Shown piece by piece: positions 14,816-31,930 of a stretch of 32,159 nt of DNA (the first letter of the stretch is position 1; each line of letters begins with the position of its first letter). The stretch covers positions 1 through 32,159 of the forward strand of contig JADGFE010000009.1 in assembly GCA_016744085.1 (NCBI GenBank), read 5' to 3'. Position numbers and translations under genes: made by a program. The notes under the pieces are model-generated. The model had not been told where the DNA came from. It ran no database searches and saw only the letters and a list, made by a program, of their open reading frames with translations. Source of the DNA: Kiritimatiellales bacterium (lineage in GTDB: Bacteria > Verrucomicrobiota > Kiritimatiellia > Kiritimatiellales > Pontiellaceae).

Positions 14816-16525
14816 TTAATGTTCACTGGTAACACGCATGATCTCTTCAATGGATGTCATGCCTTCTCGAACGCGCTCAAGCCCGGCTTCGCGCAAGGTG
14901 CGCATCCCGTTTTCAATGGCGATTTTTGAGATGGCATCCGCTTCAGGGTTATTCAGAACTGTTTTTCGGATTGCTTCATCAACTAGCAAAATTTCCATAA
15001 TGCCCCCGCGGCCTTTGTACCCAATGTTATTGCACTTAGGGCATCCGGATTTCTGATAAAACTGGGTTCCTTCAAAGACCGCAGGATCGATCCGGCTTTT
15101 CTTAAGGGTTTCGAGCGGGATATCAGTTTCTTTTTTGCAGACCGGGCAAAGTCGGCGATACAGCCTTTGTGCCTGGGTCAGTAGTAGCGAAGAGGCCAGC
15201 ATGAAGGGTTCAATCCCCATATCAACCAATCGAGCAATCGCACCGGCAGCATCGTTTGTATGCAGTGTGCTCAATACCAAGTGACCGGTCAGTGCGGCTT
15301 CAACCGCAATCGTTGCTGTTTCGCCATCACGAATTTCGCCGACCATCACCACATCCGGATCCTGACGAAGAATCGATCGTAGTGCCGCCGAAAAATTCAA
15401 CCCAACCGTCGGATTGATCTGAACCTGGTTAATGCCGTCCAGCTGATATTCCACCGGGTTTTCCGTGGTGATGATATTGGTTCCCACTTCGTTCAGCTCC
15501 TGCAGGGCCGAATAAAGTGTGGTTGTTTTTCCACTACCGGTCGGGCCTGTTACGAGAATCATGCCATAGGGTTGGCCTAGGGCGTATGAAAAGTTGTCGA
15601 GGGAAAGCTGATCCAGGCCAAGGGATTGGAGGTTCGGGGCCAATGCGGTTTTGTCGAGAATACGCATGACTACTTTTTCCCCGTGAATCGTGGGGAGCAT
15701 GCTCATACGAACATCCACTTCCTTGCCGAGTGCTTTGATTTTAAACCGGCCGTCCTGCGGAATACGCCGTTCCGCAATATCCAGCTGCGACATAATTTTT
15801 AAACGTGAGATTATGGCGTTTTGAAGGTTTTTCGGCGGGCTGGGGGATTCGTATAACACCCCATCAATACGGTTCCTGAGCCGTACCGTTTTTTCCATGG
15901 GCTCGATGTGTATATCGGATGCTCCCTTGCGTAAGGCTTCAATCAGGATGGAGTTAACAATCCGGATCACAGGAGCTTCCCCTGCGTTTTCAAGCATTTC
16001 ATCCAGACTAGCGTCTTCCATGCCTTCTTTGCCGACCTCGACATCGCTTTCATCGGCCATGTCTTTAAGAATGTCTTCCAGGGCTTGGGAGGGTTCTTCG
16101 GTAACAGAGCTGATGGCGTCGTCGATATGCTTTTCGAGAGTTACAACAGGAACGAGTTCCAATTGAGTTCCAGAAGCAAGGGCATCGCGGCTGACAATGT
16201 CGAATGGATCAGCCATGGCAATTGTCAATCGGGTTCCCAGTTTTGCCACGGGAATTGATTTCAGTTCTTTCCAGCGCTCTCGGGGCATTAACTCAAATAG
16301 CGCAGGGTCCGGAGTAAAAGAGGCAAGTGAGATGGGCCGAATATCTAAATAATCAGCTGTGGCCAGAACCAGATCCAAATCAGAAACAACGCCCTGTTTG
16401 ATTAAAAGCTGTTCAATCGAAACATTTGTGATTTCCGCTTCTTTCTGGGCTTCCTCATAGATATCCGCCTCGATGGGGCGGATGCTTTTGAGGCATTCCA
16501 TTAAACTGGATGAATTTGTTCTCAT
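14816..16525 (-). CDS. gspE: Type II secretion / type IV pilus assembly ATPase GspE/PilB
   Basis: GPTGSGKTTTLYSALQELN, RQDPDVVMVGEIRDGETA, STLHTNDAAGAIARL, tetracysteine CPVC...CPKC; start reassigned to MRTNSSSL (ORF-track start 16579 overlaps a candidate promoter). Confidence 0.95.
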   Translation of the reverse strand: MRTNSSSLMECLKSIRPIEADIYEEAQKEAEITNVSIEQLLIKQGVVSDLDLVLATADYLDIRPISLASFTPDPALFELMPRERWKELKSIPVAKLGTRLTIAMADPFDIVSRDALASGTQLELVPVVTLEKHIDDAISSVTEEPSQALEDILKDMADESDVEVGKEGMEDASLDEMLENAGEAPVIRIVNSILIEALRKGASDIHIEPMEKTVRLRNRIDGVLYESPSPPKNLQNAIISRLKIMSQLDIAERRIPQDGRFKIKALGKEVDVRMSMLPTIHGEKVVMRILDKTALAPNLQSLGLDQLSLDNFSYALGQPYGMILVTGPTGSGKTTTLYSALQELNEVGTNIITTENPVEYQLDGINQVQINPTVGLNFSAALRSILRQDPDVVMVGEIRDGETATIAVEAALTGHLVLSTLHTNDAAGAIARLVDMGIEPFMLASSLLLTQAQRLYRRLCPVCKKETDIPLETLKKSRIDPAVFEGTQFYQKSGCPKCNNIGYKGRGGIMEILLVDEAIRKTVLNNPEADAISKIAIENGMRTLREAGLERVREGMTSIEEIMRVTSEH

Positions 16526-16567
16526 GTACGTTTCTGTTCCGTTGTTCTCACAATTATTCTCCCTACT

Positions 16568-16583
16568 AGCATTACCCATGCCT
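16568..16583 (-). promoter_or_regulatory. Candidate sigma54 promoter of the gspE-pilC-sensor-regulator unit
   Basis: Minus strand AGGCATGGGTAATGCT; GG-N10-GC, 9/12 matches to consensus. Confidence 0.5.
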
Positions 16584-16744: not shown

Positions 16745-17584
16745 ATGGAAGACCCGCAACAGAGTAATGAAGCACTGGCCGACAGTATCGCGATGTTGGA
16801 ACAGATTCTTGAGGTTATGCCTCAGGATACTGATGCAATTAAAGCACTGTATCGAGCGCACTTTAACCGTGGTAATCTAGAACGGGCCTTTGAACATTTG
16901 AATAGCCTGGTGAGTATTGTTTCAAGTGGTGGCGAACCGGATACCTTGCTTTTTCTTCAGAGTGAATTACCTCAATTCGAAGAAGTCTATCCATCTGAAG
17001 TTGCTGCCCAGGTGGCCCGCCTTAGAATGGTGGAATTCTCTATAGGAAAAAATGAGGAGACATCAACGCCTTCAAAACCTGATAGCAGTAGTTCAGAAAA
17101 GAACTCCGTAGAAGTCGACATCAGCGAAGAGCTTGCATTGGCCTGGCGGCTGTATGAGGAAAATCAGCTATCTCAGGAGGAGTATTCGAGTGTGCTACAT
17201 GATCTTACAGAGGTATCGTCTAAGGAGCTGGATGTTCCTGTAAGCGTTCTTCATGTGCTTAATGATCGAGGTTTTACGCAGATGACGCGAATCTTGAATT
17301 ACCTATCGACCCGATCGGGAATTCCATTTATCTCTCTGGCTAACATTGAGCTGGGTGATAAGATAGCGAGCGCTCTACCACTCGACATTTCTGCTCATGA
17401 TGGGGCGTTGCCTTTCTCTTTTCTCGAGAACGATCTTCTGATCGGTGTGTTAAATCCATTTAATAATATGCTGGTGGATCGAATTGAAACGGAATGCGGA
17501 CGCCGGTGCCATACCTATCTGGTTGAGCCGGAAGATTATGATAGCGCGCTTCACAAGCTACGTATTCTGGTTGAAGAGAGTTAG
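16745..17584 (+). CDS. TPR-containing protein with stand-alone GspE N-terminal (T2SSE_N/MshEN)-like domain
   Basis: N-terminal TPR-like helices (LEQILEVMPQDTDAIKALYRAHFNRGNLERAFEHLN); C-terminus ...IPFISLANIELGDKIASALPLDISAHDGALPFSFLENDLLIGVLNPFNNMLVDRIETECGRRCHTYLVEPEDYDSALHKL resembles the GspE N-domain. Confidence 0.7.
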   Translation: MEDPQQSNEALADSIAMLEQILEVMPQDTDAIKALYRAHFNRGNLERAFEHLNSLVSIVSSGGEPDTLLFLQSELPQFEEVYPSEVAAQVARLRMVEFSIGKNEETSTPSKPDSSSSEKNSVEVDISEELALAWRLYEENQLSQEEYSSVLHDLTEVSSKELDVPVSVLHVLNDRGFTQMTRILNYLSTRSGIPFISLANIELGDKIASALPLDISAHDGALPFSFLENDLLIGVLNPFNNMLVDRIETECGRRCHTYLVEPEDYDSALHKLRILVEES

Positions 17585-18132
17585 TCTTTTACGTCTAGTG
17601 AAAGGGTCTTTGTTTCGCCCTTATACTCAACGATTACATCGTGAGAGCGAATTTTCGAAAGTTTGACTTTCCCATCAATAAGCTGCCCTTGAAGAATCTG
17701 TTTTCCATTGATGATGGCAAAGTCACCGCCGCCGCTGGTTGAGCTTCCGAATCCCGTAACTTTCATTTTTGGCCAGTTCACTTTTACATCACGTTTCCCA
17801 AAAAGTTTATTAGGTTTCTGCTCTTCGTGTTCGGTCGTTTCAGCTGATTGAGTAATCGGTGTTGCTGCTTTAGGTTTTTGGAGTTGTGCTGCGTATTCTT
17901 TTCCTTGAGAGAACAGGGCGGAAAAGCTAAAAGCCGCATTTTTTGTTTCACTACCAGTGCCGACCTTTTTAGAGCTGTAATGGAGCATCATGGTGCCGGC
18001 CATAAAAAAGCCTGCGATCAGCAGTACAATAGTCACCAGCATGGTGCGTGATGAAGGGTTTTTCTCAATATTATCAGCTTCTTCCTGTATGGGGGACTCG
18101 TTGCTTAATTCACTCAATGTTGGCTCCTGCAT
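17581..18132 (-). CDS. Single-TM protein with GspB-like C-terminal domain
   Basis: One TM (MLVTIVLLIAGFFMAGTMML), linker, then MKVTGFGSSTSGGGDFAIINGKQILQGQLIDGKVKLSKIRSHDVIVEYKGETKTLSL. Confidence 0.65.
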   Translation of the reverse strand: MQEPTLSELSNESPIQEEADNIEKNPSSRTMLVTIVLLIAGFFMAGTMMLHYSSKKVGTGSETKNAAFSFSALFSQGKEYAAQLQKPKAATPITQSAETTEHEEQKPNKLFGKRDVKVNWPKMKVTGFGSSTSGGGDFAIINGKQILQGQLIDGKVKLSKIRSHDVIVEYKGETKTLSLDVKD

Positions 18133-18318: not shown

Positions 18319-19329
18319 ATGATGAAGAAAAAAATCAGTAAGACCCGATCACAGCAAAAGTTTTCGGACCTTGTCGGAGTTGATTTTTCATCGACAGCCA
18401 CAAAGATTGTACGATTGAAGGAAAACAAGGGTGAGGTTTCGTTGGCGGGAATTGATTTATTGCCAGCTGTCGATTTTAGAACTGCGGCCAGGAGAATTGA
18501 ACTGCCTAGGAACATTACGTCCTATTACGGATGTTTGAGCTACACGGGGAGTGCTGCTGTCGTGCGGATGATTAATACGCAGTTGGCTGAAACGGAAAAT
18601 CAGGTAACCGATAGTAAGCTTAGAGAGCTCCTTAACGTTACAGACGATTTCCGAGTTTCGGCTCGAATCATCAAACGAGGAAAAGGACGTCAGGATTCGA
18701 GTATGTTGGCTGCAGCAATTCCGGAAGACGATATTCGGTTTTTACTTAATATGTTTCCTTCTGGCCCGCCGGCTCCGGCTTCACTCGAATTGTCGGGACT
18801 TGCTTTTGTGTCTGCCTTTCTTCATGCCCGTAAAGCGGAGTGCGAAGACTCCGCGGTGTGTCTCTTGGAAGCCGGCGAGACAATCAGTCATTTTGTATTT
18901 CTTAATAAAGGTGAAGTTGTGCTGGTTGGAAAAATGTCATTCGGCACTCAGACCTTGCGCAACCAGCTTTCAAAAGATCTGGGCGTTGATGAAGATCTTG
19001 CGGCAAGTATTTTAAACGATCGCTCAATCAATATTTCCTCTTCTCTTTCCAAGGTGCTGGCTCCTTTCATTAAGCAACTTTCAATTTCAAAAGATTTTAT
19101 TGAGCGCCATCAGGGTTGCCGAGTTTCAAAGTTATACGTTTCCGGAGGGTTGAGTCTGTTTCCTAGCTGGAGCAATGAACTCGAGCAAATGCTTAATTCT
19201 GAAGTGCTCCGATGGAGTCCATTGGAAAATATTATCTGCGATCCAGAGATTTTAACTCAGGATATGAAGGATCAGGCGACTCGTTTTTCTGCAGCAATTG
19301 GTGCGGCCCTAGGAGGGTTTGAAGCATGA
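18319..19329 (+). CDS. pilM: Actin-like assembly protein PilM
   Basis: LVGVDFSSTATKIVRLKENKGEVSLAG..., LYVSGGLSLFPSWSNELEQML, AAIGAALGG; start reassigned from TTG 18301 to ATG 18319 after aaggaaag. Confidence 0.85.
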   Translation: MMKKKISKTRSQQKFSDLVGVDFSSTATKIVRLKENKGEVSLAGIDLLPAVDFRTAARRIELPRNITSYYGCLSYTGSAAVVRMINTQLAETENQVTDSKLRELLNVTDDFRVSARIIKRGKGRQDSSMLAAAIPEDDIRFLLNMFPSGPPAPASLELSGLAFVSAFLHARKAECEDSAVCLLEAGETISHFVFLNKGEVVLVGKMSFGTQTLRNQLSKDLGVDEDLAASILNDRSINISSSLSKVLAPFIKQLSISKDFIERHQGCRVSKLYVSGGLSLFPSWSNELEQMLNSEVLRWSPLENIICDPEILTQDMKDQATRFSAAIGAALGGFEA

Positions 19330-19955
19330 TGAATTATCCTAGCGTAAATTTATTAAAGAAAAGTGAACAACGGCACCAAGGCGTCGTAAGCCGTAAATTT
19401 ACTTTTGTCAGCGCTGTGGTTGCGCCCATCTTACTTATTGCCATTCTCAGTGGGGTTAAGCTTTTTCAATACAACGGCGTGAAGTCGGAGCTAACCGCGA
19501 ACCGCATACTATGGAAAGATTTGGAACCGCGCTTAACCCTCTTCAAAGATGAAAACCGGGGTTTGGTGATGAATCGGAAAGCGCTGGACTTATTTGGTGG
19601 TTGGAAAAATTCTCAGGCTTCATTCGTCACGCTTCTGGAAGATATTCAGGGCATTGTTCCAGAGCAGGTTCAATTCACCCGTTTATCCGTTCAAACCAAA
19701 AAAACAGGCTCAGTATATGCAACTGTAGATGACCTTGCACTGTCATTTGATCTGGTTATTGAAGGACTTGCCCATGGAGCTCGTGCTGAAAATTATGTAA
19801 TTGATCTCCGGAAAGATTTACTGACCTGCCAGCAAATCGGTTCCACCTTCGAGTCCATTAAGCTAGCCTCCATGCGTAAGAGGGAAGGGGCTGCTGGGCA
19901 AAGCCTTCGGGAATTCCGTTTGGAAGGAAAATCTGTTGTAGAGGAGGGACTATGA
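19326..19955 (+). CDS. pilN: PilN-like assembly protein
   Basis: N-terminal VNLLKKSEQRHQ followed by one TM, coiled-coil and ferredoxin-like region; position between pilM and pilO. Confidence 0.8.
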   Translation: MMNYPSVNLLKKSEQRHQGVVSRKFTFVSAVVAPILLIAILSGVKLFQYNGVKSELTANRILWKDLEPRLTLFKDENRGLVMNRKALDLFGGWKNSQASFVTLLEDIQGIVPEQVQFTRLSVQTKKTGSVYATVDDLALSFDLVIEGLAHGARAENYVIDLRKDLLTCQQIGSTFESIKLASMRKREGAAGQSLREFRLEGKSVVEEGL

Positions 19956-21469
19956 GCCTCGCGGATTTAAGTAAACAGCAGAAGCAATTCATCATCCTTG
20001 GAATTACGGGCTCGGTGTTTGTTCTCATTTTGGCGGTGATCGGGATTAAAATCAGTCTGTCATCAATTGCGGAAGCAAAAGAAGAGCTGGCTGGAATTTC
20101 TGAAAAAATTGATAAGGCGGATAGCGTACTATCGAAGCGTAACCGTGCGGGACAGGATTTCGAGCGGACCGTTTCCATTCTGAAAGATCACCTTAGAAAT
20201 ATTCCGCCGGAAATAAATTATTATTCATGGGCAACTGAAATCATTTATTCAAATGGTCGAAATTCTGAGATGGAAATTGAATCGGTTGATGAAATCGGTG
20301 GTGGTGCAAGAAAGCATGCAGAAGACTCGGGAGCGGCTGTGCAATTTGAATCGTATTCATTGCGTATTGCAGCTCGAGGTAGCTACGAACAGGTAAAAAC
20401 TTTTCTTAAAAGTATTGAAGAAGAATATCCCCTGGTTCGGTTTACGGGAATAGACATCAAGGTTGGAAAAAATTCTGACACCCATGCCGTTCAGTTATTT
20501 CTTCAATGGCCATTTAATCTGGGGCAAATTACAAAGGTTTGGGATGATGTAGAAGCGAAGCAAATGAAGATCGCAAAACGAGATGCGTTAAAAGCGAAAT
20601 CCAGGACTCCCGTTCCGGTTGTTACTGCAATTGTGCCAGATTCGGAGTCCAAATCGGTGGTTGTTCCTACTCCGAAACCAGAACAAATTATTGAGCCTGA
20701 TCCAGAAGTAATGAAGCAGGCACCGGTTGTCGCGGTGGTTATTCCTGACCCGGAACCTGAGCAGGCTGATACGCCAATGCCGAAGTCTGATCCGATTGTT
20801 CAGCCTATTCCAGAAATAGTTGAGCCTGTACCGGTTATTGCAGCAGTTATTCCTGAGCCAGAGTTTGAACAGGTTGTTACACCAACGCCAAAACCGGAGC
20901 CGACCATTGAGCCTATTCCGGAAGTAGTTAAGCCTGCACCGGTTATTGTAGCAGTTATTCCTGATTCAGAGCCCGAATCGGCGGTTGCACCAATGCCGAA
21001 ATCTGAGCCGGTTCCGGTAAACGAAAATCTTGATTCCTTACTAGAGTCCCTCGCTTCGGAAGAAGTGGTTGAGTCTGCGCCGGAGGTTGTGATTAGTGAT
21101 CCTGTTGCTGAGGAATCTTCTTCTGTCACCAATAAGCCAAATAATGAACTTGGATCATTGCTGGCATCTCTCGATTCGCGTGGTGATGAAGAAGCGATAA
21201 CAGAGGGCGCTCAGTCTGAAAGCGAGGCTTCGTCCGAGGACTTGGAAAGCTATCTAAAACAGTTAGGGGAGCAGCAGGCTATGGCTAAAAATAAACCGGA
21301 ACATGTAGAGGAACAACCAGTCGAAAAGAAGGTTGTTGAAAGACCCGCTCAATATGTTTCGAGTGCAAAAAGTACGGCACTACTGGTTGATATGCTGACT
21401 AAAGAAAAACCTAAAACAAGTGAAAACCTAAGCTCGTTCCTGAATGGTATTGGTGGAGGATATCAATGA
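19952..21469 (+). CDS. pilO: PilO-like assembly protein with long Pro/Glu-rich disordered C-terminal extension
   Basis: TM near N-terminus, coiled coil, ferredoxin-like SYSLRIAARGSYEQVKTFLKSIEEEYPLVRFTGIDIKV; residues after ~210 are low complexity with repeats. Confidence 0.8.
   Translation: MSLADLSKQQKQFIILGITGSVFVLILAVIGIKISLSSIAEAKEELAGISEKIDKADSVLSKRNRAGQDFERTVSILKDHLRNIPPEINYYSWATEIIYSNGRNSEMEIESVDEIGGGARKHAEDSGAAVQFESYSLRIAARGSYEQVKTFLKSIEEEYPLVRFTGIDIKVGKNSDTHAVQLFLQWPFNLGQITKVWDDVEAKQMKIAKRDALKAKSRTPVPVVTAIVPDSESKSVVVPTPKPEQIIEPDPEVMKQAPVVAVVIPDPEPEQADTPMPKSDPIVQPIPEIVEPVPVIAAVIPEPEFEQVVTPTPKPEPTIEPIPEVVKPAPVIVAVIPDSEPESAVAPMPKSEPVPVNENLDSLLESLASEEVVESAPEVVISDPVAEESSSVTNKPNNELGSLLASLDSRGDEEAITEGAQSESEASSEDLESYLKQLGEQQAMAKNKPEHVEEQPVEKKVVERPAQYVSSAKSTALLVDMLTKEKPKTSENLSSFLNGIGGGYQ
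20608..21018 (+). repeat. Intragenic tandem repeat, ~36-aa (108-nt) Pro/Glu-rich unit, ~3.5 copies
   Basis: PVPVVTAIVPDSESKSVVVPTPKPEQIIEPDPEVMK / APVVAVVIPDPEPEQADTPMPKSDPIVQPIPEIVE / PVPVIAAVIPEPEFEQVVTPTPKPEPTIEPIPEVVK / APVIVAVIPDSEPESAVAPMPKSEP. Confidence 0.85.
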
Positions 21470-21918
21470 TTAATATCGATAACATATTTTCGCATAAAGA
21501 AATACGACGAATGTTGCTGGTGACTTTACTTTGTCTGGCGATTTCTCCGTCTTCCTTTAGTAAGGGAACTGAACTAAATGGCGCGGATAATGCTTGCAAA
21601 GAGCAAGCCTCTCCTAAACGCGATCCTTTCTGGCCGGTTGGTTATTTGCCGGAAAGCATCAGAAGAGCTGAGGCGGAAAAGAATCAGGAAGTTGTTGCTC
21701 CTATGGTCAGCAACAACTGGAACGAAGCCATGAAAAAAGTTGTGATTAATGGAGTTAGTAGTCGTGCGGACAATGAGTTTTTTGCCGTGATAAACGGGCA
21801 GGTTAAAACGGTCGGCGATGCGATTTCATTGAGTCACGAAGGTACAATTTACACTTGGGCAGTCGATAGTATTAATCCGCCGGGTTCGGTGAAGTTACGT
21901 CGAGTGTCAGCGCTTTAA
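21466..21918 (+). CDS. PilP/GspB-like protein (inner-membrane to secretin adapter candidate)
   Basis: Signal/TM, DPFWPVGYLPE, then VVINGVSSRADNEFFAVINGQVKTVGDAISLSHEGTIYTWAVDSINPPGSVKLRRV; located between pilO and secretin. Confidence 0.65.
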   Translation: MINIDNIFSHKEIRRMLLVTLLCLAISPSSFSKGTELNGADNACKEQASPKRDPFWPVGYLPESIRRAEAEKNQEVVAPMVSNNWNEAMKKVVINGVSSRADNEFFAVINGQVKTVGDAISLSHEGTIYTWAVDSINPPGSVKLRRVSAL

Positions 21919-21942: not shown

Positions 21943-23847
21943 ATGGTGAAAGTAATGAAGATCAATAAGAAGAAAGTATGTTGGGGAACTGTAACTGTAT
22001 TTCTATTGGTAGTTTCTTTAGTTTATTCACAGCAACGAGAAATTGATGATCAGGATTTGCTGAATCTGGTTGAAGAAGTCAAGCAACCACCGGCTGTGGA
22101 AACAAATGTTGTTTCGGCAGTAACTCCGGTTGATCTTGCGCTGGAAACTTTGGTGGAAGCAGGGGAGCGGGCGGGTACCGCCGATTCTGCCATGGCTGAA
22201 TCTGTTGATGAAGAAATTACGATGGATGATCTGCAGGTAGGGGAATTTGATGAAGAAGTTGGCAGCAGTTCGGGTAATCTGATTTCGGTTCGACTTAATC
22301 GGGTGGGTCTGGAAGAAGCGATTAATCTTTTTGCACAGCTTTCAGGAGCAAACATCATTGTTCCGGAACTGACCGAAGCAGCGCAGCTTTCAGTCAACCT
22401 AAAGGATGTTGAATGGCGTCCCGCATTACAGACCATTCTGGATACATACAACTACGAGCTATATCAACGTGTATCGGGTTCGAGCGTGTTCAGTGTGCGC
22501 CGTCGCCCGCCGGGAGCGCCTGAGCCTCAGGTCGTAGAAACATTTATTCTCAAGTATGCCACCGTGCCGGACGTAGCAGAGCTTGTTCGTGAGCTCTTGC
22601 CTGCAGAGTCTAAGGTCTCGGAGTTTGCTTCCCGTAATATGATTGTGGTTAAAAGTTCAGAATCGAGTCTCAGCGAAGTCCGGGCCGTACTTGAGACCAT
22701 TGATATCGTACGGCAACAGGTCTTCATCGAATCCAAATTTATGGAGCTCTCCGATGATGCTCAGAAGAATCTGGGAATCGATTGGAGTGTGCTCAAAGCT
22801 TACAGTGCAGGAACCGTTGGCGCGACGAGAAAAACATCTACACAAACGGATACGAAAACCGATAGTTCCAGTAAATATACCGATGTTGACGGCAACCGAT
22901 ATGAAGATGTTTCTGGAGGATATAAAAATTTAGGACAGCGAGGCGTATTGAATCAGCTGACCGGCGTTACGCCATCCAAGCTTATTGAGAATAAGGGTGT
23001 CGCGACGGACGTGTTGACGAGTGTGTTGAGCGCCGATGAATTTCGGGTTGTCTTAAGCGCATTGGAACATAATAAAGGGGTGAATGTTGTTTCCAATCCG
23101 AAGGTTATTGTTGCGAATGAAGAGAAGGCAAATATTTCCATTGTTCGCAAAGAACCCAACCTGAAACAGGAACGCGAACAGCAGTTGAACGACCAACCTT
23201 CAACCACCACATTCACGCTTGATGAACAAATGCCTTTCTTTGAATACGGAATCAAACTGGATGTGCAACCTTCGATTAATACATCCAGCAATATTACGGT
23301 TCGGATTAATCCATCGCTGACCCGCAAGTTTGAAGACAAACCGGCCGGCGAAGTGACCTATCCGGTCATTGATGAAAAAAGCATCGAAACCATCTTTAAT
23401 CTGGCAAGCGGACAGACGGCGGCAATCGGTGGACTGACTGAAGTAACCGAAGGGGACGAAGAAAAGAAGATTCCCGTGCTGGGAAGCATCCCATACCTGG
23501 GTCGACTTTTCTCCTGGAATAAAACTGTCCGAGGGCAGAGTGAGACCATTATTTTTGTGACTGTGGGACTGGCCAATACGCAGGATATTGATGCGGATAC
23601 CGGTATGCCTGGCGATGCCGAGCTCGCCCGTCGCCAAATCATTAAAGATAACAACAAGCGTATCTTGCGCGATTCAAGCCGCCGTTACTATGAAGCGGAA
23701 GAAAAGGATAAGCTCGATGACATGATGAAAGTGATCAAACAAAAAGAGGACGACCGTATTGACCGCCGCCTTCATGCCTTGGAATTGCAACAGGAAAAAG
23801 CGGCTCAACAGGCCGCAAAAAACCAGGAAGTTGCTTCAAACAACTAA
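21943..23847 (+). CDS. gspD: Secretin (GspD/PilQ family)
   Basis: Signal peptide, STN/N-domains (SVRLNRVGLEEAINLFAQLSGANIIV), secretin core NVVSNPKVIVANEEKANI ... FNLASGQTAAIGGLTE...KKIPVLGSIPYLGRLFSWN...ETIIFVTVGL. Confidence 0.92.
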   Translation: MVKVMKINKKKVCWGTVTVFLLVVSLVYSQQREIDDQDLLNLVEEVKQPPAVETNVVSAVTPVDLALETLVEAGERAGTADSAMAESVDEEITMDDLQVGEFDEEVGSSSGNLISVRLNRVGLEEAINLFAQLSGANIIVPELTEAAQLSVNLKDVEWRPALQTILDTYNYELYQRVSGSSVFSVRRRPPGAPEPQVVETFILKYATVPDVAELVRELLPAESKVSEFASRNMIVVKSSESSLSEVRAVLETIDIVRQQVFIESKFMELSDDAQKNLGIDWSVLKAYSAGTVGATRKTSTQTDTKTDSSSKYTDVDGNRYEDVSGGYKNLGQRGVLNQLTGVTPSKLIENKGVATDVLTSVLSADEFRVVLSALEHNKGVNVVSNPKVIVANEEKANISIVRKEPNLKQEREQQLNDQPSTTTFTLDEQMPFFEYGIKLDVQPSINTSSNITVRINPSLTRKFEDKPAGEVTYPVIDEKSIETIFNLASGQTAAIGGLTEVTEGDEEKKIPVLGSIPYLGRLFSWNKTVRGQSETIIFVTVGLANTQDIDADTGMPGDAELARRQIIKDNNKRILRDSSRRYYEAEEKDKLDDMMKVIKQKEDDRIDRRLHALELQQEKAAQQAAKNQEVASNN

Positions 23848-23902: not shown

Positions 23903-26900
23903 GTGAAAAAACAAATTATAGGCTGGGCCGTATTTGCAGGCTTGCTGCTGGTGATCGGAATAGGGATCTATAAGTCCGTTCGGGAAAAATCGGATGCAGT
24001 CGGACCCGAATCGACTAGAGAAAGTGTTCAACCTGAGCTACGGGGTGGTGTGATCTCTTCAGTATCAGAAAAATTGATTCCCGTTAGCTCTGTTGAATCC
24101 AGTGATCTTGAATGGTTTGATGCTGCGGCTGGATTTACTGTGCTAGACGAACGTCAGAATATAACGGCCAATGGGGATGTCGAACGGAAACGCCTTGTTA
24201 AACGCGAAGGAAAATATCCTAACCGCATTCTGATAGAAACACTTCGCCGAGATCGTCAGCAAAACAAGTTTGTTCCTGCCGGCCGTATTGAAATGGCGGC
24301 AGACCATATACTGGTTAACCTGCGAGAAGGACAGGATGTTGACGCGCTGACTGATCTGAACGCGACTCATGGTGCAACCATCATTCAGCAATTATCCGGT
24401 ACGAGCACCTTCGTTGTTCAGTTGGAATCCACAACATTGGATGCGCTGGAGACCGCAATTAAATTTTATAGCGAAGCTGCAGATAAAGTGGCTTATGCAG
24501 AGCCCGATTATGTTCGGTATCCTACGGCGCTTCCGAATGATACAGACTATGGGCAACTATGGGGGATGACCAAGATATCAGCTCCTGCTGCATGGGATAT
24601 TTCTACCGGTAACAGTAATGTAGTTGTTGCAGTGATCGACTCAGGAATGGACATGGATCATCCGGACTTGCTGTCAAACCTTTGGAGCAATGATGGTGAG
24701 ATTGCCGGTGATGGTATTGACAACGACAACAATGGTTATATTGACGATGTCAATGGCTGGAACTTTGTTGCAAACAGCAAAGACCCTGAAGATGACCAGA
24801 GTCATGGTACTCATTGTGCGGGAACTATTGGGGCTGTTGGTAATAATGGGAATCAGGTAGTCGGTATTTGTTGGAATGTGAGTATAATGCCTTTGAAAAG
24901 TGCTAACGCTGCCGGATCTTTTGTATCAGATACCAGTGTTGCAATTCGGTATGCGGTCGATAATGGGGCCAAAGTTTTATCCAACTCGTACGGGGGAGGG
25001 GGGAATAGCCAAACCGACTATGACGCCATTCTATATGCGCATAATAAGGGAGCTATTTTTGTGGCTGCAGCAGGAAATGATGCCGCGGACAACGATGCGA
25101 TTCCCATGTACCCGGCAGGCTACGATGTGCCTAATGTTATTTCTGTTGCGGCCACGGACTCGAGTGATGATCTTGCCGGATTTTCGAACTTTGGAGCAAC
25201 CTCAGTTGATTTGGCTGCACCAGGAGTTGGTATTCTGAGTACCGTTCCTGATGGTGCCACAGAATTGAAAAATGGAACATCTATGGCCTGCCCGCATGTG
25301 GCGGGTGCGATGGCTCTGCTGTTAGGAGTGCAACCGGACTTAGCCCCAGCAGAAGCTAAACAGATTTTAATGAATAGTATAGATCCTGTTGTCGGTCTTG
25401 CGGGGAAAGTGGTCACCGGCGGACGCCTGAATTTACAAAAATTAATGGCCGGAGCAACCGATTCGGATGGCGATGACATGCCCGACGAATGGGAAACTTT
25501 ATACGGTTTCAACCCATTGGATGCTTCCGATGGGGGGACTAATGATTTTGATGGCGATTTTCTTTTTAATACGGATGAATATCTCAATAACTGTAACCCA
25601 ACTAATTCCGATACGGATGCCGACTCGTTGGTTGATGGGTGGGAAGTTACGTATGGCTTTAATCCGCTCAATGTTGCCGGACCGCTCTCCAAATTACAGT
25701 ACCTGGGGGCTAACTCTGATTGTAAAGATGCCTATGCCGTTGATATCCAAAGTAACCTCGCATTCGTTGCTGATGGATCTTATGGCTTAAAAATTCTGGA
25801 TATCACGGAACCGAGCAATGTCGAATTGGTTGGAACCTTTGCGACTCAGGGATCTGCTCGTGGAATTGAAGTGGCGGATGGTTATGCGTATCTATCCGAT
25901 GCGGAGAAAGGGTTCTTTATCATTGATGTTAGTAATCCGGCTAACCCGGTACAGGCGGGAGTCGTTCAAACCAATGCCTATAATGCCGCATTGGACGGCA
26001 CTCATGCCTACGTGGCGGGGGGCACAAATGGAATGTTTGTAATTGATATTTCCACTCCTGCCAGCCCATCCATTGTGGGATCATACAACACCCCATATAT
26101 TACCGTGAATGATCTGACGGTAGTTGGAAGCAAAGTCTATCTGGCGATGGATAATAAGTTTGGGCGACTGACCATCAGTGATCCCGCAAATCCTTCCAGC
26201 TACTATGCCGTAGCTTTGGCTGATACTTCCGGTCCGAGTATTGGTGAGGCGATTCACTATGATGGAACCCACTTCTATCTCACCTTGAAGGATTTTGGAT
26301 ATTCTGAATTTAACCTATCCATGACCCGTGTTTCACGGTACGAGCATGCTGCTGCAGCTAAAGATATCGATGTCTTTGAGAATTTCGTCTTTATGGCTGA
26401 CGGAGCCGAAGGCTTACTGATTGTGGACAATACCGATCTTAATGATCTGAAGGTACACGCTCGGTATAAAAGTATTATTGCGCAAGGAGTGAAGCAGTCG
26501 GGCGGATACGTTTATGTTGCCGGCCTTGGTTCTGGATTCCACTCCTTCATTGCCGGTGAAGACGTTGATAGCGATGGCCTGTATGATAAATGGGAAATGG
26601 ATAATTTTGGATCGCTCAGCCAAACGGCGGACACCGATTTTGATAGCGATGGAATCATTAACTGGGGTGAATATCTGGCCAACCTCGATCCTGCAGATGA
26701 CGATCAGGATTCCGATTCGCTGATTGATGGTTTTGATGAAGTTCAAACCTACAATACGGATCCGCGGACGGATGATACCGATACGGATGGTTTGACCGAT
26801 AGCTTTGAGGTCACCACTAACGCCATTGATAACATGTATCTTACGAATCCCCTTCTGGCTGATACCGATGACGATGGCATGACGGATAAGTGGGAACTCG

Positions 26901-29900
26901 ATAATGGATTAAATCCGCTTATTGACGATGGTGGTCTGGATTCCGATAACGACGGCGCAACCAATCGCGACGAAGAAGCGGCCGGTACCGATCCGCAAAG
27001 CTGGGATACTGATTTCGATGGGATGCCAGATGGTTGGGAAATTGAAAGCGGACTGGATCCATTGGTAGATGATGCTGCTTTGAACCCTGATGGCGATATG
27101 TTCACGAACCTTACTGCATTTGTGAATCTCCAGGAATATCTACAGATTTCAAATAATGCGCCATACTTTGCTTCAACCAATCCGAACAAAGCGGATTCCG
27201 ATGATGATGGTCTGAGCGATACAGAAGAAATTGAACTTTATTTAACCGATCCGAACAACGCGGATACCGATGCCGATGGCATGCCGGACGGTTGGGAAAC
27301 TGAACATGGTCTGGATCCGTTCAGCGATGATTCGACTTTAGATTCCGATGGCGATGGGCTCTCGAACTACGAGGAATACCTTAATGGAAGCAGTCCGTCT
27401 TCCGCCGATACAGATGCCGATGGTTTTACCGATGACTGGGAACGCGACTGGGGTACTAGTGCCACGAATACCGCCGACCCGTTGGTGGTTGATGATGACC
27501 ATCCTGATGATCCTCAACCACAATATCCATTGGAAAGTAATACCAATGAAAATGGTTCTGCCCAGGCTCCATTCGATGCCATTCAGGAAGCGATCAACGT
27601 GGCCACCAATGGTCCCGTAACGATTCTCGTGATGGAAGGCTTGTACGATGGGCCGGGAAATTTCGATATAGACCCACAGGGCAAGGAGCTCATCATTCGT
27701 TCTCATGGCGGAGCAACAAATACACTCATTACCAGCTACGGAATCGGTGCTGGATTTATTTTCCGAACCGGTGAAACAACGAATACGATTTTAAGAGGGT
27801 TTTCGATCACTACAACGTTGAATGCCTGCTCGGACGGCAACTGCGATCAGAGGCATGGAATCGTTTGTAATGCCGCCAGTCCGCTCATAAGGGATTGCAT
27901 TATATATGAATGCGAGTTGCGTGGTATTTCGTGCACGTTTGGCGCCAGCCCAGTTATCTCCAACTGTGTCGTTAGTACTTGCCTTTATGGAATCTACGCC
28001 GAAGGAGGGGCAACGCCTATAATTCTTGAAAGCACTGTTGCCTTGAGTGGGAATCACGCGGAGTTAGAGGATTCCGGTCTCGGCATCACGGCGCTTGATA
28101 GTAGCGGACTCGTTGTTTCCAATTGTACCGTATATGGAACTTCGGGTCGGGGGATCAAGATCCGTAACGATGCTGCGGCACAGATTTCCGACACCCTCAT
28201 CCAGAATAACCTCGGTGGTGTGTCCCTGGATGCAAGTTCTCCGGTTTTCAGACGTTGTGAAATTCTTGGTAACATTGCGCCAGACTACATTACGATCAAT
28301 GGAACAAGAGTACTCAGTTCCGTTAACGAAGCTGAAAAGTGTGCAGCTCTGGATGATTGGGTAGATATCATCGATGAAGATGAAAACGGTGGTGCTGTTC
28401 TCAGTATGCGCAGCTCGTTCCCATACTTTGAAAATTGTTTGATTGCGACCAACAAGACTGTGGCAACCGACCCGGCCTATCCAAATAACAGTTCCATTCC
28501 AAATTATGGTTTGGGTGGCGGAATTTATGTGGGTGCAGACTGCGAAGCTTATGTAATGAATTGCACGTTGGCTGATAACTCGGCATTCACTCGTGGTGGT
28601 GGATTCAGTAACATAGGCGGCGGAATCAATGGTCTGTTTAATTCAGTGGTCTGGGGTAATACAGCATATAACCATTATTTAATGGAGTCGCAGACTCTTT
28701 CTGAACCATCTACCAACAAATCCTCAACTTATCCATCGCTGCATTGCCGGAGTGGCTCTATCAGCACCAGTTTTAGCGATGTTGAATATGGGTATGCGGG
28801 TAGTAAGAATATTGACGCCGACCCGCTATTTGTCGGTGGTGCTGACTATCGTTTTTCCGTTGGCTCTCCTTGTATCGATACTGGCGGCATTGCCTTCCAG
28901 ACAGAGCCGTCCTCTCCAGTGCTGTATGCTCCCACCCACGATGCCGATGGCCTAGGCCGTCCGCTGGATGGAAATGGGGACGGCGATGAAGATATGGATA
29001 TGGGAGCGTATGAGTTCATTAATCCAGCGTCGGATACCGATGGTGATGATATGCCTGATTACTGGGAACGAATCCATGGGTTTGACCTATTGATGGATGA
29101 TAGCAGTTTGGATCCGGATTCTGACGGGCTCAGTAATCTGGAAGAATTTCAGCAACTCGCAGGGGTGTATGGCCAAAGCACAAACCCACATGATTCCGAT
29201 TCCGACGACGATGATCTGTTGGATGGCGAGGAAGTGAATATACATGGAACGAATCCCAATGTAGCGGATACGGATGGCGATCTGCTCTCTGATAAATGGG
29301 AGGTGGACAATGGCCTGGATCCGCTTGTGAGCTCTGGCGTTGCTGATGACGATGCCGATGGGCTTTCCAATTTTGATGAAAGCCAGCTAGGAACAGATCC
29401 GAACAATGACGACACCGATGGCGATGGTATGTCTGACGGTTGGGAAGTTCTGCACGCGCTGAATCCTCTCGTTAATGATGCCGCGAATGATCCCGATGCC
29501 GATACGCTTAATAATCTGGCTGAATTTAATCAGCGTGATATTGGACCTTACTTTGGTTCAACCAATCCGAACTTGGCTGATACCGATGCGGACGGCCTTT
29601 CCGATGCCGATGAAATAAATCTTCATGGCACCGATCCGAACCATCCAGATACCGATGGCGATGGAATGTCCGATAAGTGGGAGCTGGTTAATGGGCTGAA
29701 TCCACTGGTGGACGATGCCAGTATTGATAGCGACGGGGATTCGCTTTCGAATTATGATGAGTTCCTTAACGGCAGTAGTCCTGATTTGGCGGATACGGAT
29801 GCCGATGGCTATGCCGATGATCTGGAATTCCAATGGGGCACGCAGTCCACAAACGCGGCCGATCCTATACTGGTTGATGATGACCACTCAGATGATCCTG

Positions 29901-31930
29901 CTATTTATGATCCGACCTTCTCCAACCCGAATGAAGATGGAACGAAAAATAGTCCGTTTGATGCGATTCAGGAGGCTATTGATGCGGCCCAAGATGGTAT
30001 GCTGGTTCTCGTAACCAATGGTTACTACATTGGCACGGGCAACATGAATATCGATACGAAGGGCAAGGCGATTCGTGTATTCTCCTATAATGGCTATGCC
30101 GATACCTTTATCGATGCCGACGGTCTTGGCGCCGGCTTCGTCTTCAGCTCAGGCGAAGGCTCCAATACGGTGATCTCTGGATTTACCATTTCGTCTCCAC
30201 CTGGTGACTGTTCGGATGGCACATGCGGCTATGAGCATGGTGTGATCTGCTCCGATGGCTCTTCACCTGTAATCGAGGATTGCTATATCTTTGGCTGTGC
30301 GCTCAACGGCATACAGTGCTACGAGGGGTCCAGTCCGATAGTACGCTCGGTGGAAATTGATGGATGTAGTGTTGGTATTGCTGCCAGCGACGGATCAACA
30401 CCGGTGATTGAAAGCGTATCGATCAGTGATTGCGCTAAGGGAATTCAGTCCTCAGATAGTGTTGGCCTGAAAATAAAAGACTCAACTATTGCCAATTGTG
30501 CGGGTCGCGGTTTATTGATTACCAATGATCCTGAGCTTGAAATTATGCGGACCCGCGTTGCTGATAATTTAGGCGGTATGACCCTGAAAAAATGCAAGGC
30601 CACAATCGATCGGTGCATGATCGAGGACAATATTGCACCGGACTATGCCTCTGATGGTAAGTATAGCTACAATATTGCCCTGCAGGCCGTCAGATCCGAG
30701 GGCAGCATGTCCGATATGACGGATGAGGATGAAAATGGTGCCGGTATTATGTTGCTGAATGGCTCGGTTCTATATCTACAGAACAGCCTGTTAGCAGGGA
30801 ATAATGCTGTAGCTCTGGATCCTGGCTATCCAAGTACGAAAACCCGGCCTGATTATGGTCTGGGTGGCGGGCTGTATATCGGTTCCAACTGTTTTGCGAC
30901 GAATATGAATTGCACCTATGCCAACAACGAAGCTCGGCGCGGTGGAGGGATATCCAGTCATGGGAGTCATACTGACTACATTCGTAATACTGTCCTGTGG
31001 GATAACGAGACCCAAGATAAATGGATTGAGAGTACCTCTTACACTACCACCAGCTGGGTGCCTGGAAATATCGAGGGGGGAGTAACCAACATGGTGCCGG
31101 AAGTTACCACGCATACAATCTATAGGATGGAAGTGGTGGTTAACCCCATCTATTCATCGCTCCATTGCCGCGATGGTGCTTTTAATGTCTGGTATTGCGA
31201 TGTGGAAAACGGAGAAAGTTATATCAGCGTTTACAAACGGGTGATAGAAGCCGATCCTCTGTTTAGTACAAACTTCAGCCTGAGTGCAGGATCTCCGTGC
31301 ATAGACGAAGGGACACCATTCCTGGCTCCTCTCTATGATTTTGGCGGTATTTCCCGACCATTGAACGGGGATAATAACGGAACATCTCGGCACGATATGG
31401 GTGCATTCGAGGCCGTTCATGCAGCCGCAGATTCCGATAACGATGGGGTGCTTGATCAGGATGAAATCGACGGGGGAACAAATCCTACCAAAGACGATAC
31501 CGATGCCGATGGCATGCTCGATGGTTACGAAGTCATGTATGGTTTCGATGCCACGAGTGATGATGCGAGCGCAGACGCCGATGGCGACGGACTTTCAAAT
31601 CTGGCGGAGTCCGGTAACGGAACCGATCCGACGAAGGAAGATACGGATGGGGATAACAGCTCCGATGGCGATGAAATGATTGCCGGAACCAGCGCGACGG
31701 ATCCTAGTTCCTATTTCTATGTGTCCAATATACAGCCGCTGGTTGGCGGTGGATGCGATATTGTTTTTGATACAGTAGTGGGCAGAACCTACACCGTATA
31801 CTGCTGCACTGAACTCGGCGGCGAATGGAACCTCGTGCTGGGTAATATTCCCGGCGATGGTAATCCGGCGGTTATCAATGATCCTGATAGCTCGGGTAGC
31901 TGTTTCTATAAGGTAGATGTTTATAAATAG
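23903..31930 (+). CDS. Giant multidomain subtilisin-family (S8) protease: signal/TM, propeptide, S8 domain, TSP3 repeats, LVIVD propeller, two parallel beta-helix modules, C-terminal domain
   Basis: S8 triad: D246 (VVVAVIDSGMDMDHPDL), H301 (SHGTHCAGTIG), S460 (GTSMACPHVAGAMALLLG); many DxDxDGxxD TSP3 repeats; LAFVADGSYGLKILDITEPSNVELVG LVIVD repeats; SPVISNCVVSTC / SPVIEDCYIFGC beta-helix repeats. Confidence 0.92.
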   Translation: MKKQIIGWAVFAGLLLVIGIGIYKSVREKSDAVGPESTRESVQPELRGGVISSVSEKLIPVSSVESSDLEWFDAAAGFTVLDERQNITANGDVERKRLVKREGKYPNRILIETLRRDRQQNKFVPAGRIEMAADHILVNLREGQDVDALTDLNATHGATIIQQLSGTSTFVVQLESTTLDALETAIKFYSEAADKVAYAEPDYVRYPTALPNDTDYGQLWGMTKISAPAAWDISTGNSNVVVAVIDSGMDMDHPDLLSNLWSNDGEIAGDGIDNDNNGYIDDVNGWNFVANSKDPEDDQSHGTHCAGTIGAVGNNGNQVVGICWNVSIMPLKSANAAGSFVSDTSVAIRYAVDNGAKVLSNSYGGGGNSQTDYDAILYAHNKGAIFVAAAGNDAADNDAIPMYPAGYDVPNVISVAATDSSDDLAGFSNFGATSVDLAAPGVGILSTVPDGATELKNGTSMACPHVAGAMALLLGVQPDLAPAEAKQILMNSIDPVVGLAGKVVTGGRLNLQKLMAGATDSDGDDMPDEWETLYGFNPLDASDGGTNDFDGDFLFNTDEYLNNCNPTNSDTDADSLVDGWEVTYGFNPLNVAGPLSKLQYLGANSDCKDAYAVDIQSNLAFVADGSYGLKILDITEPSNVELVGTFATQGSARGIEVADGYAYLSDAEKGFFIIDVSNPANPVQAGVVQTNAYNAALDGTHAYVAGGTNGMFVIDISTPASPSIVGSYNTPYITVNDLTVVGSKVYLAMDNKFGRLTISDPANPSSYYAVALADTSGPSIGEAIHYDGTHFYLTLKDFGYSEFNLSMTRVSRYEHAAAAKDIDVFENFVFMADGAEGLLIVDNTDLNDLKVHARYKSIIAQGVKQSGGYVYVAGLGSGFHSFIAGEDVDSDGLYDKWEMDNFGSLSQTADTDFDSDGIINWGEYLANLDPADDDQDSDSLIDGFDEVQTYNTDPRTDDTDTDGLTDSFEVTTNAIDNMYLTNPLLADTDDDGMTDKWELDNGLNPLIDDGGLDSDNDGATNRDEEAAGTDPQSWDTDFDGMPDGWEIESGLDPLVDDAALNPDGDMFTNLTAFVNLQEYLQISNNAPYFASTNPNKADSDDDGLSDTEEIELYLTDPNNADTDADGMPDGWETEHGLDPFSDDSTLDSDGDGLSNYEEYLNGSSPSSADTDADGFTDDWERDWGTSATNTADPLVVDDDHPDDPQPQYPLESNTNENGSAQAPFDAIQEAINVATNGPVTILVMEGLYDGPGNFDIDPQGKELIIRSHGGATNTLITSYGIGAGFIFRTGETTNTILRGFSITTTLNACSDGNCDQRHGIVCNAASPLIRDCIIYECELRGISCTFGASPVISNCVVSTCLYGIYAEGGATPIILESTVALSGNHAELEDSGLGITALDSSGLVVSNCTVYGTSGRGIKIRNDAAAQISDTLIQNNLGGVSLDASSPVFRRCEILGNIAPDYITINGTRVLSSVNEAEKCAALDDWVDIIDEDENGGAVLSMRSSFPYFENCLIATNKTVATDPAYPNNSSIPNYGLGGGIYVGADCEAYVMNCTLADNSAFTRGGGFSNIGGGINGLFNSVVWGNTAYNHYLMESQTLSEPSTNKSSTYPSLHCRSGSISTSFSDVEYGYAGSKNIDADPLFVGGADYRFSVGSPCIDTGGIAFQTEPSSPVLYAPTHDADGLGRPLDGNGDGDEDMDMGAYEFINPASDTDGDDMPDYWERIHGFDLLMDDSSLDPDSDGLSNLEEFQQLAGVYGQSTNPHDSDSDDDDLLDGEEVNIHGTNPNVADTDGDLLSDKWEVDNGLDPLVSSGVADDDADGLSNFDESQLGTDPNNDDTDGDGMSDGWEVLHALNPLVNDAANDPDADTLNNLAEFNQRDIGPYFGSTNPNLADTDADGLSDADEINLHGTDPNHPDTDGDGMSDKWELVNGLNPLVDDASIDSDGDSLSNYDEFLNGSSPDLADTDADGYADDLEFQWGTQSTNAADPILVDDDHSDDPAIYDPTFSNPNEDGTKNSPFDAIQEAIDAAQDGMLVLVTNGYYIGTGNMNIDTKGKAIRVFSYNGYADTFIDADGLGAGFVFSSGEGSNTVISGFTISSPPGDCSDGTCGYEHGVICSDGSSPVIEDCYIFGCALNGIQCYEGSSPIVRSVEIDGCSVGIAASDGSTPVIESVSISDCAKGIQSSDSVGLKIKDSTIANCAGRGLLITNDPELEIMRTRVADNLGGMTLKKCKATIDRCMIEDNIAPDYASDGKYSYNIALQAVRSEGSMSDMTDEDENGAGIMLLNGSVLYLQNSLLAGNNAVALDPGYPSTKTRPDYGLGGGLYIGSNCFATNMNCTYANNEARRGGGISSHGSHTDYIRNTVLWDNETQDKWIESTSYTTTSWVPGNIEGGVTNMVPEVTTHTIYRMEVVVNPIYSSLHCRDGAFNVWYCDVENGESYISVYKRVIEADPLFSTNFSLSAGSPCIDEGTPFLAPLYDFGGISRPLNGDNNGTSRHDMGAFEAVHAAADSDNDGVLDQDEIDGGTNPTKDDTDADGMLDGYEVMYGFDATSDDASADADGDGLSNLAESGNGTDPTKEDTDGDNSSDGDEMIAGTSATDPSSYFYVSNIQPLVGGGCDIVFDTVVGRTYTVYCCTELGGEWNLVLGNIPGDGNPAVINDPDSSGSCFYKVDVYK
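27004..29050 (+). repeat. Intragenic duplicated module, copy A (TSP3 + beta-helix)
   Basis: Aligns by eye with copy B, e.g. DPLVVDDDHPDDP...APFDAIQEAINVA...GAGFIFRTGE...CSDGNCDQRHGIVC. Confidence 0.8.
29410..31445 (+). repeat. Intragenic duplicated module, copy B (TSP3 + beta-helix)
   Basis: DPILVDDDHSDDP...SPFDAIQEAIDAA...GAGFVFSSGE...CSDGTCGYEHGVIC. Confidence 0.8.

Follow-up and report, generated by a model that had tools for sequence, protein, structure and literature searches.

A PilO-like protein of Pontiella-like Kiritimatiellota carries a long, predicted disordered C-terminal tail with conserved helical islands, a putative docking arm

The pilO gene of a type IV pilus/type II secretion-like cluster from a Kiritimatiellales bacterium encodes a protein that ends in a predicted disordered C-terminal arm of about 290 residues, the last 150 of which are predicted to contain five short amphipathic helices, two of kind A and one each of C, D1 and D2. 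Taken together, sequences and structure models indicate that this tail is real, under selection and restricted to one lineage, and that a role for it is plausible. On balance we favor the joint reading that the protein is a PilO subunit of a type IV pilus/type II secretion-like machine in Pontiella-like Kiritimatiellota, and that its tail acts as a tethered docking arm in the periplasm, with helical peptides of several kinds for a putative partner.

Results

The pilO gene and its core

The window, by which we mean the whole 32,159-nucleotide stretch of DNA that was analyzed, contains a type IV pilus/type II secretion-like cluster that includes pilB, pilM, pilN, pilO, a PilP-like gene and a secretin gene (Table 1). 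The position of the gene in a pilM-pilN-pilO-pilP-pilQ cluster is confirmed in the window and in its relatives; the stretch that encodes the tail has pilN on one side and pilP-pilQ on the other, and the cluster is syntenic. The original prediction had the feature start at position 20608, which falls inside the tail; the feature is the whole gene. AlphaFold models the core with pLDDT values mostly of 80-97 and with the build of the PilO/GspM superfamily (an N-terminal membrane helix, a coiled coil and a ferredoxin-like periplasmic domain), and Foldseek searches with this model returned 3jc8 (E 2.3e-5), 2rjz (2.6e-5), Amuc_1100 (5.6e-4) and EpsM (7e-3). The PilO-like identity first proposed for the product is therefore upheld by both the predicted fold and the gene order; the PilO core that was proposed with it is also confirmed, but the AlphaFold model places its boundary nearer to residue 217 than to the residue 210 or so originally given. 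Neither Pfam nor NCBIfam names the protein. PF04350 does not match it at E values up to 1, T2SSM_b (E 0.083) is its only Pfam match, and the copies at the pilO locus of its genus-mates likewise go undetected by PF04350. A PF04350 match above cut-off is an annotation convenience and not a defining property of PilO; the core is too diverged for that profile, and we place it in the PilO/GspM superfamily because fold and synteny agree.

Table 1. Features of the window, with the parts of pilO (E values are given as such; residue numbers refer to the PilO protein).
Feature	Position	Strand	Basis or remark
pilB	14816-16579	-	
TPR and MshEN fusion without ATPase domain	16745-17584		Divergent from pilB; conserved across the genus
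GspC/GspB-like inner-membrane protein, HR-type C-terminal domain	17581-18132	-	Candidate partner; T2SSB 1.7e-6 (just below Pfam cut-off), T2SSC 0.0017
PilN-like protein	19326-19955	+	Expected PilO heterodimer partner; PF05137 E 0.0025 (below Pfam cut-off), synteny
pilO, PilO-like inner-membrane protein with long C-terminal tail	19952-21469	+	505 aa; ORF (ATG), fold, synteny
PilO core	19952-20602	+	AlphaFold model: TM and coiled-coil helix 8-82, ferredoxin-like domain 90-188, helix 191-217
Three 36-aa Pro/Glu-rich repeats	20672-20995	+	Predicted disordered spacer, net charge about -15
Helical island A, copy 1	21023-21052	+	ENLDSLLESL, residues 358-367
Helical island A, copy 2	21143-21172	+	NELGSLLASL then DSRG, residues 398-407
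Helical island C	21236-21265	+	EDLESYLKQL, residues 429-438; class consensus DLxxYVxxL
Helical island D1	21371-21403	+	STALLVDMLTK, residues 474-484, within YVSSAKSTALLVDMLTK; class consensus KSAxxLEELLxK
Helical island D2	21422-21451	+	ENLSSFLNGI, residues 491-500, near C-terminus; class consensus SLGSFLDGLVEDIN
PilP-like periplasmic protein	21466-21918	+	Candidate partner; RDPFWPVGY motif; start overlaps pilO stop
PilQ/GspD-type secretin	21943-23847	+	Candidate partner; PF00263 1.4e-33, TIGR02515 2.6e-44
Giant S8-type protease	23903-31930		2675 residues; S8 by eye; starts 56 bp after secretin

Layout of the tail

The first part of the tail is built on a 108-bp (36-aa) direct repeat whose copies are about 70% alike; a Pro/Glu repeat of about this length had been described with some 3.5 copies, and the repeat is real while its copy number is three. 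All four decamers originally listed were found at the positions claimed for them, and island D1 is a fifth conserved helical island that the earlier list lacked. The pattern L.S[LYF]L..[LI] occurs four times in the tail of the window's protein, against 0.001 expected from composition-preserving shuffles, and in orthologue tails outside its definition it occurs 12 times (0.01 expected); a relaxed form of it is found in orthologue tails 37 times against an expectation of 0.26. The decamer pattern is not due to chance.

The view that the four decamers are copies of one motif did not survive comparison with orthologues, which separate them into three distinct classes (A, A, C and D2). Position-specific profiles for A, C and D2, built from the orthologues, give median scores of about 28-36 bits within their own class and place the other classes no higher than shuffled background; the two borderline exceptions are both instances in the window's PilO. 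That the four decamers look alike is thus largely peculiar to this single protein, and no one profile recognizes all copies, as the profile of a single-motif multivalent repeat would. The order of the islands is fixed as A-C-D1-D2 in the nine genomes with a full tail, while spacer length and the copy number of A vary. Class A ([LM]xSLLASL) is the only repeated class, with 1-4 copies of which the last is usually followed by DS/GS-[HR]-G, and its copies multiply in places together with linkers (G001 and G017). The fuller consensuses are YVSSxKSAxxLEELLxK for D1 and KPKxSxSLGSFLDGLVEDIN for D2. The idea of multivalent copies of one decamer is thus unsupported as it was stated, since the motifs are different, stand in a fixed order and are multiplied only in class A.

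Predicted structure of the islands

The full-length AlphaFold model shows a tail that is disordered save for helices at the five islands (residues 360-368, 399-407, 428-445, 472-484 and 493-500). This agrees with the disordered tail and acidic spacers first described, as the model shows disorder between the islands and the linkers are acidic and fast-evolving. A model of the tail by itself gives the same five helices (pTM 0.18) with no fixed packing between islands. The island helices are predicted with moderate confidence and from few homologues, their block mean pLDDT being about 58-85, with the value of 85 reached by the helix of island C. Their hydrophobic residues follow an i, i+3, i+4, i+7 pattern on a negatively charged helix, with hydrophobic moments of 0.50-0.63 for four of the five, and such leucine-striped, negatively charged helices are a better fit to protein grooves than to membranes.

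A pattern of this kind also suits the packing of helices against each other, and there are several PilO copies per machine, a 6-fold PilMNO assembly being predicted in Thermus (PMC13039148). The islands of neighboring PilO copies might accordingly bind one another, as coiled-coil or helical-bundle clasps that stabilize the PilN/PilO ring. We consider this unlikely, given that no island-island packing is seen in the monomer models and that the islands differ in class and are separated by long variable linkers.

Neighboring genes and candidate partners

HMM searches of 28 and 10 genomes found no other protein that convincingly carries the islands, which were confined to PilO tails; of the weak extra matches, those read fall within a coiled-coil protein and a DUF4349-like protein and are apparently due to chance. 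Viral contigs searched with the tail gave no match, and a sequence search of solved structures gave chance matches only. Nor did correlated changes point to a partner: positions at which genomes with and without the tail differ form no clusters in PilN, PilP or the GspC-like protein, a comparison that phylogeny confounds.

Just past its signal peptide, the secretin N-terminus (21943-22300) has a conserved acidic amphipathic peptide, DDQDLLNLVEEV in the window and roughly DxDLLxMLExV in relatives, that is kept even where PilO is tail-less. Variable acidic residues come next, and then a second conserved patch, (I/V)DDLxM. A short helix-like peptide resembling the acidic one also occurs in the secretin of the sister family, e.g. 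QDVAQIFNELK. The acidic peptide (ADEDLLNMLETV) and the PilO tail look alike by eye; a motif common to the two was nevertheless rejected, as the PilO profiles fail to place the peptide consistently above other secretin windows.

The giant S8-type protease contains two beta-helix-like regions along with numerous Asp-rich, calcium-binding-like repeats, and is possibly a dedicated cargo; by eye its C-terminal 70 or so residues (YTVYCCTELGGEWNLV...FYKVDVYK) resemble a beta-rich sorting domain. Homologues of it occupy the same place in G019, G003 and G015 but are not present in all relatives, and in G005, G004 and G002 (L050, L059 and L067) the sequence directly downstream of the secretin consists of N. 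An association between tail and protease was examined and rejected, because the protease is inconsistently present in tail-bearing genomes.

Distribution and history of the tail

The D module is present in 12 of the 288 genomes of the class, all of them from the window's own genus (which includes Pontiella sulfatireligans), and is absent from the PilOs examined outside that genus; PilO is short both in the family's other genus (G218) and in sister family f2. Long PilO-like open frames elsewhere in the phylum, of up to 486 aa, reflect an upstream frame and not a C-terminal tail in the cases examined. A tree made from PilM, PilN, the PilO core, PilP and PilQ, with the tail-less genus-mate G015 at its root, puts the tail at the base of the rest of the genus. 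The tail erodes in a small-genome subclade, where D1 is kept longest (in tails ending SKSASRLEALLRN), and is also lost in G042, the number of losses on the tree not being firm as branch supports are not displayed. The D module apparently arose once and then eroded in the small-genome subclade. Carriers of the module have larger genomes (median 4.35 vs 2.1 Mb, p 0.0004 without phylogeny correction); the genome from which the window comes has 3.0 Mb and that of its genus-mate G022 has 7.4 Mb.

No PilO is detectable in the four smallest genus-mates (G011, G016, G020 and G023, 1.1-1.3 Mb), which suggests that genome reduction has removed the machine entirely, although these genomes are only 63-87% complete. 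G040 has, apart from its pilO locus, a second PilO-like protein in a 214-aa frame with a PF04350 match (G040:C6:55438-55743), and thus some members at least may carry two such machines.

The larger genomes of D-module carriers and the erosion of the tail in the small-genome subclade might be expected of an arm that captures secretion cargo or pseudopilins for the secretin and persists in organisms that export a wide repertoire. We find this doubtful, since the correlation contains few independent events, genome size and tail sharing the same phylogeny, and the protease beside the secretin is not a consistent companion of the tail. A more elaborate form of it, which seems to us distinctly improbable, is a long-reach arm whose different helical peptides, all on one flexible tether, would gather cargo or pseudopilins, dock at the secretin and couple substrate supply to the pilus motor, and which would be lost as the exported repertoire shrinks.

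Conservation and selection

Between G040 and G041, the closest pair with a full tail, pN/pS is 0.14 for the islands, 0.17 for the folded core, 0.54 for the Pro-rich part and 0.45 for the linkers, an estimate that comes from one genome pair with near-saturated synonymous sites. In this close pair the islands are kept as strictly as the PilO core. In a column test over nine genomes the four decamers stood out by their conservation, a level that 18 of 1000 random sets of four 10-mers reached. The tail has the mark of a helical short linear motif or molecular recognition feature, in that its short helix-prone islands are conserved while the disordered linkers around them evolve fast. Retention in orthologues with a similar tail had been named beforehand as a point on which the docking-peptide idea could fail; the islands are retained there and are under purifying selection, which supports it.

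These patterns also bear on whether the tail contacts peptidoglycan or the wall, as does OutB, whose C-terminal extension cross-links to peptidoglycan and aids secretion (PMC9239104). The Pro-rich spacer reaches far enough for this (about 43 nm fully extended), but wall contact through the linkers would leave the conservation of the helices alone unexplained, and the conserved parts are amphipathic acidic leucine-stripe helices and not a polyampholyte or a known wall-binding fold; we therefore give it a very modest chance. That the tail is a functionless, neutral low-complexity expansion is highly improbable even though its Pro-rich part changes fast, by tandem repeats, and many relatives are tail-less, for the pN/pS values largely refute it for the islands, which are as conserved as the folded core and stand in the same order in nine divergent genomes.

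Discussion

Purifying selection on helix-prone islands, set in fast-evolving acidic linkers behind a Pro-rich spacer, is as expected of a tethered docking arm with peptides that fold on binding. In the docking-arm reading that we favor, the arm would lie in the periplasm, because PilO usually has one N-terminal membrane helix and is otherwise periplasmic, and the Pro/Glu-rich repeats would serve as a spacer of variable length. Each island helix would fold as it binds a hydrophobic groove on some folded envelope protein, and the arm would in this way tether the inner-membrane PilN/PilO ring to that protein. As the islands are of different kinds, they probably have separate binding sites or partners, and class A, the repeated element, would give avidity. 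The likeliest partner would be the secretin assembly, whether the secretin N-domains, the PilP-like protein or the GspC-like HR protein, none of which we single out. Against this reading, the arm is dispensable for a working complex, because PilP, the secretin and the GspC-like gene stay where it has been lost.

Both the linkage of the inner-membrane platform to the secretin and the recruitment of cargo vary between lineages of type IV pilus/type II secretion machines, and the secretion machinery of this phylum is almost unstudied. Island residues can be mutated singly, and there are cultured carriers of the tail: Pontiella sulfatireligans F21 and Pontiellaceae bacteria B1224, B12219 and B12227.

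Well-studied PilO proteins have about 200 aa and end after the ferredoxin-like domain, and to our knowledge they are without a Pro-rich arm or helical islands. Those of Pseudomonas aeruginosa (2rjz) and of the M. xanthus T4aP model (3jc8) share the core fold described here and the same order beside pilN and pilP-pilQ; a PilO with such a tail was not found in the literature searched. Amuc_1100 of Akkermansia muciniphila, from a related phylum, has a PilO-like fold in common with it, and its gene also lies in a PilM-like/secretin locus, but a comparable C-terminal arm is absent from its solved chains of 171-197 residues. TonB, like the PilO arm, joins a membrane anchor to a Pro-rich, periplasm-spanning spacer; the TonB C-terminal domain is missing from PilO (Pfam finds no match to it), and the anchor of the PilO arm is the PilO core. 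GspB/OutB/ExeB are likewise inner-membrane proteins with a periplasmic linker, and join the secretin to the inner membrane and the wall. GspB/OutB bind the secretin by a folded HR domain, whereas the PilO tail has only isolated helices, with no HR domain or T2SSB match by Pfam or AlphaFold, and the functional C-terminal extension of OutB, at 28 residues (PMC9239104), is short compared with the PilO arm. In Thermus a flexible Pro/Gly-rich link between the secretin and PilN/PilO has been proposed for PilW (PMC13039148), which is a separate protein with an HR-like domain in the pilP position, while here a PilP-like protein and the PilO arm both exist. If our reading is true, conserved helical peptides on a disordered PilO arm would add to these one more means of linking the platform to the secretin.
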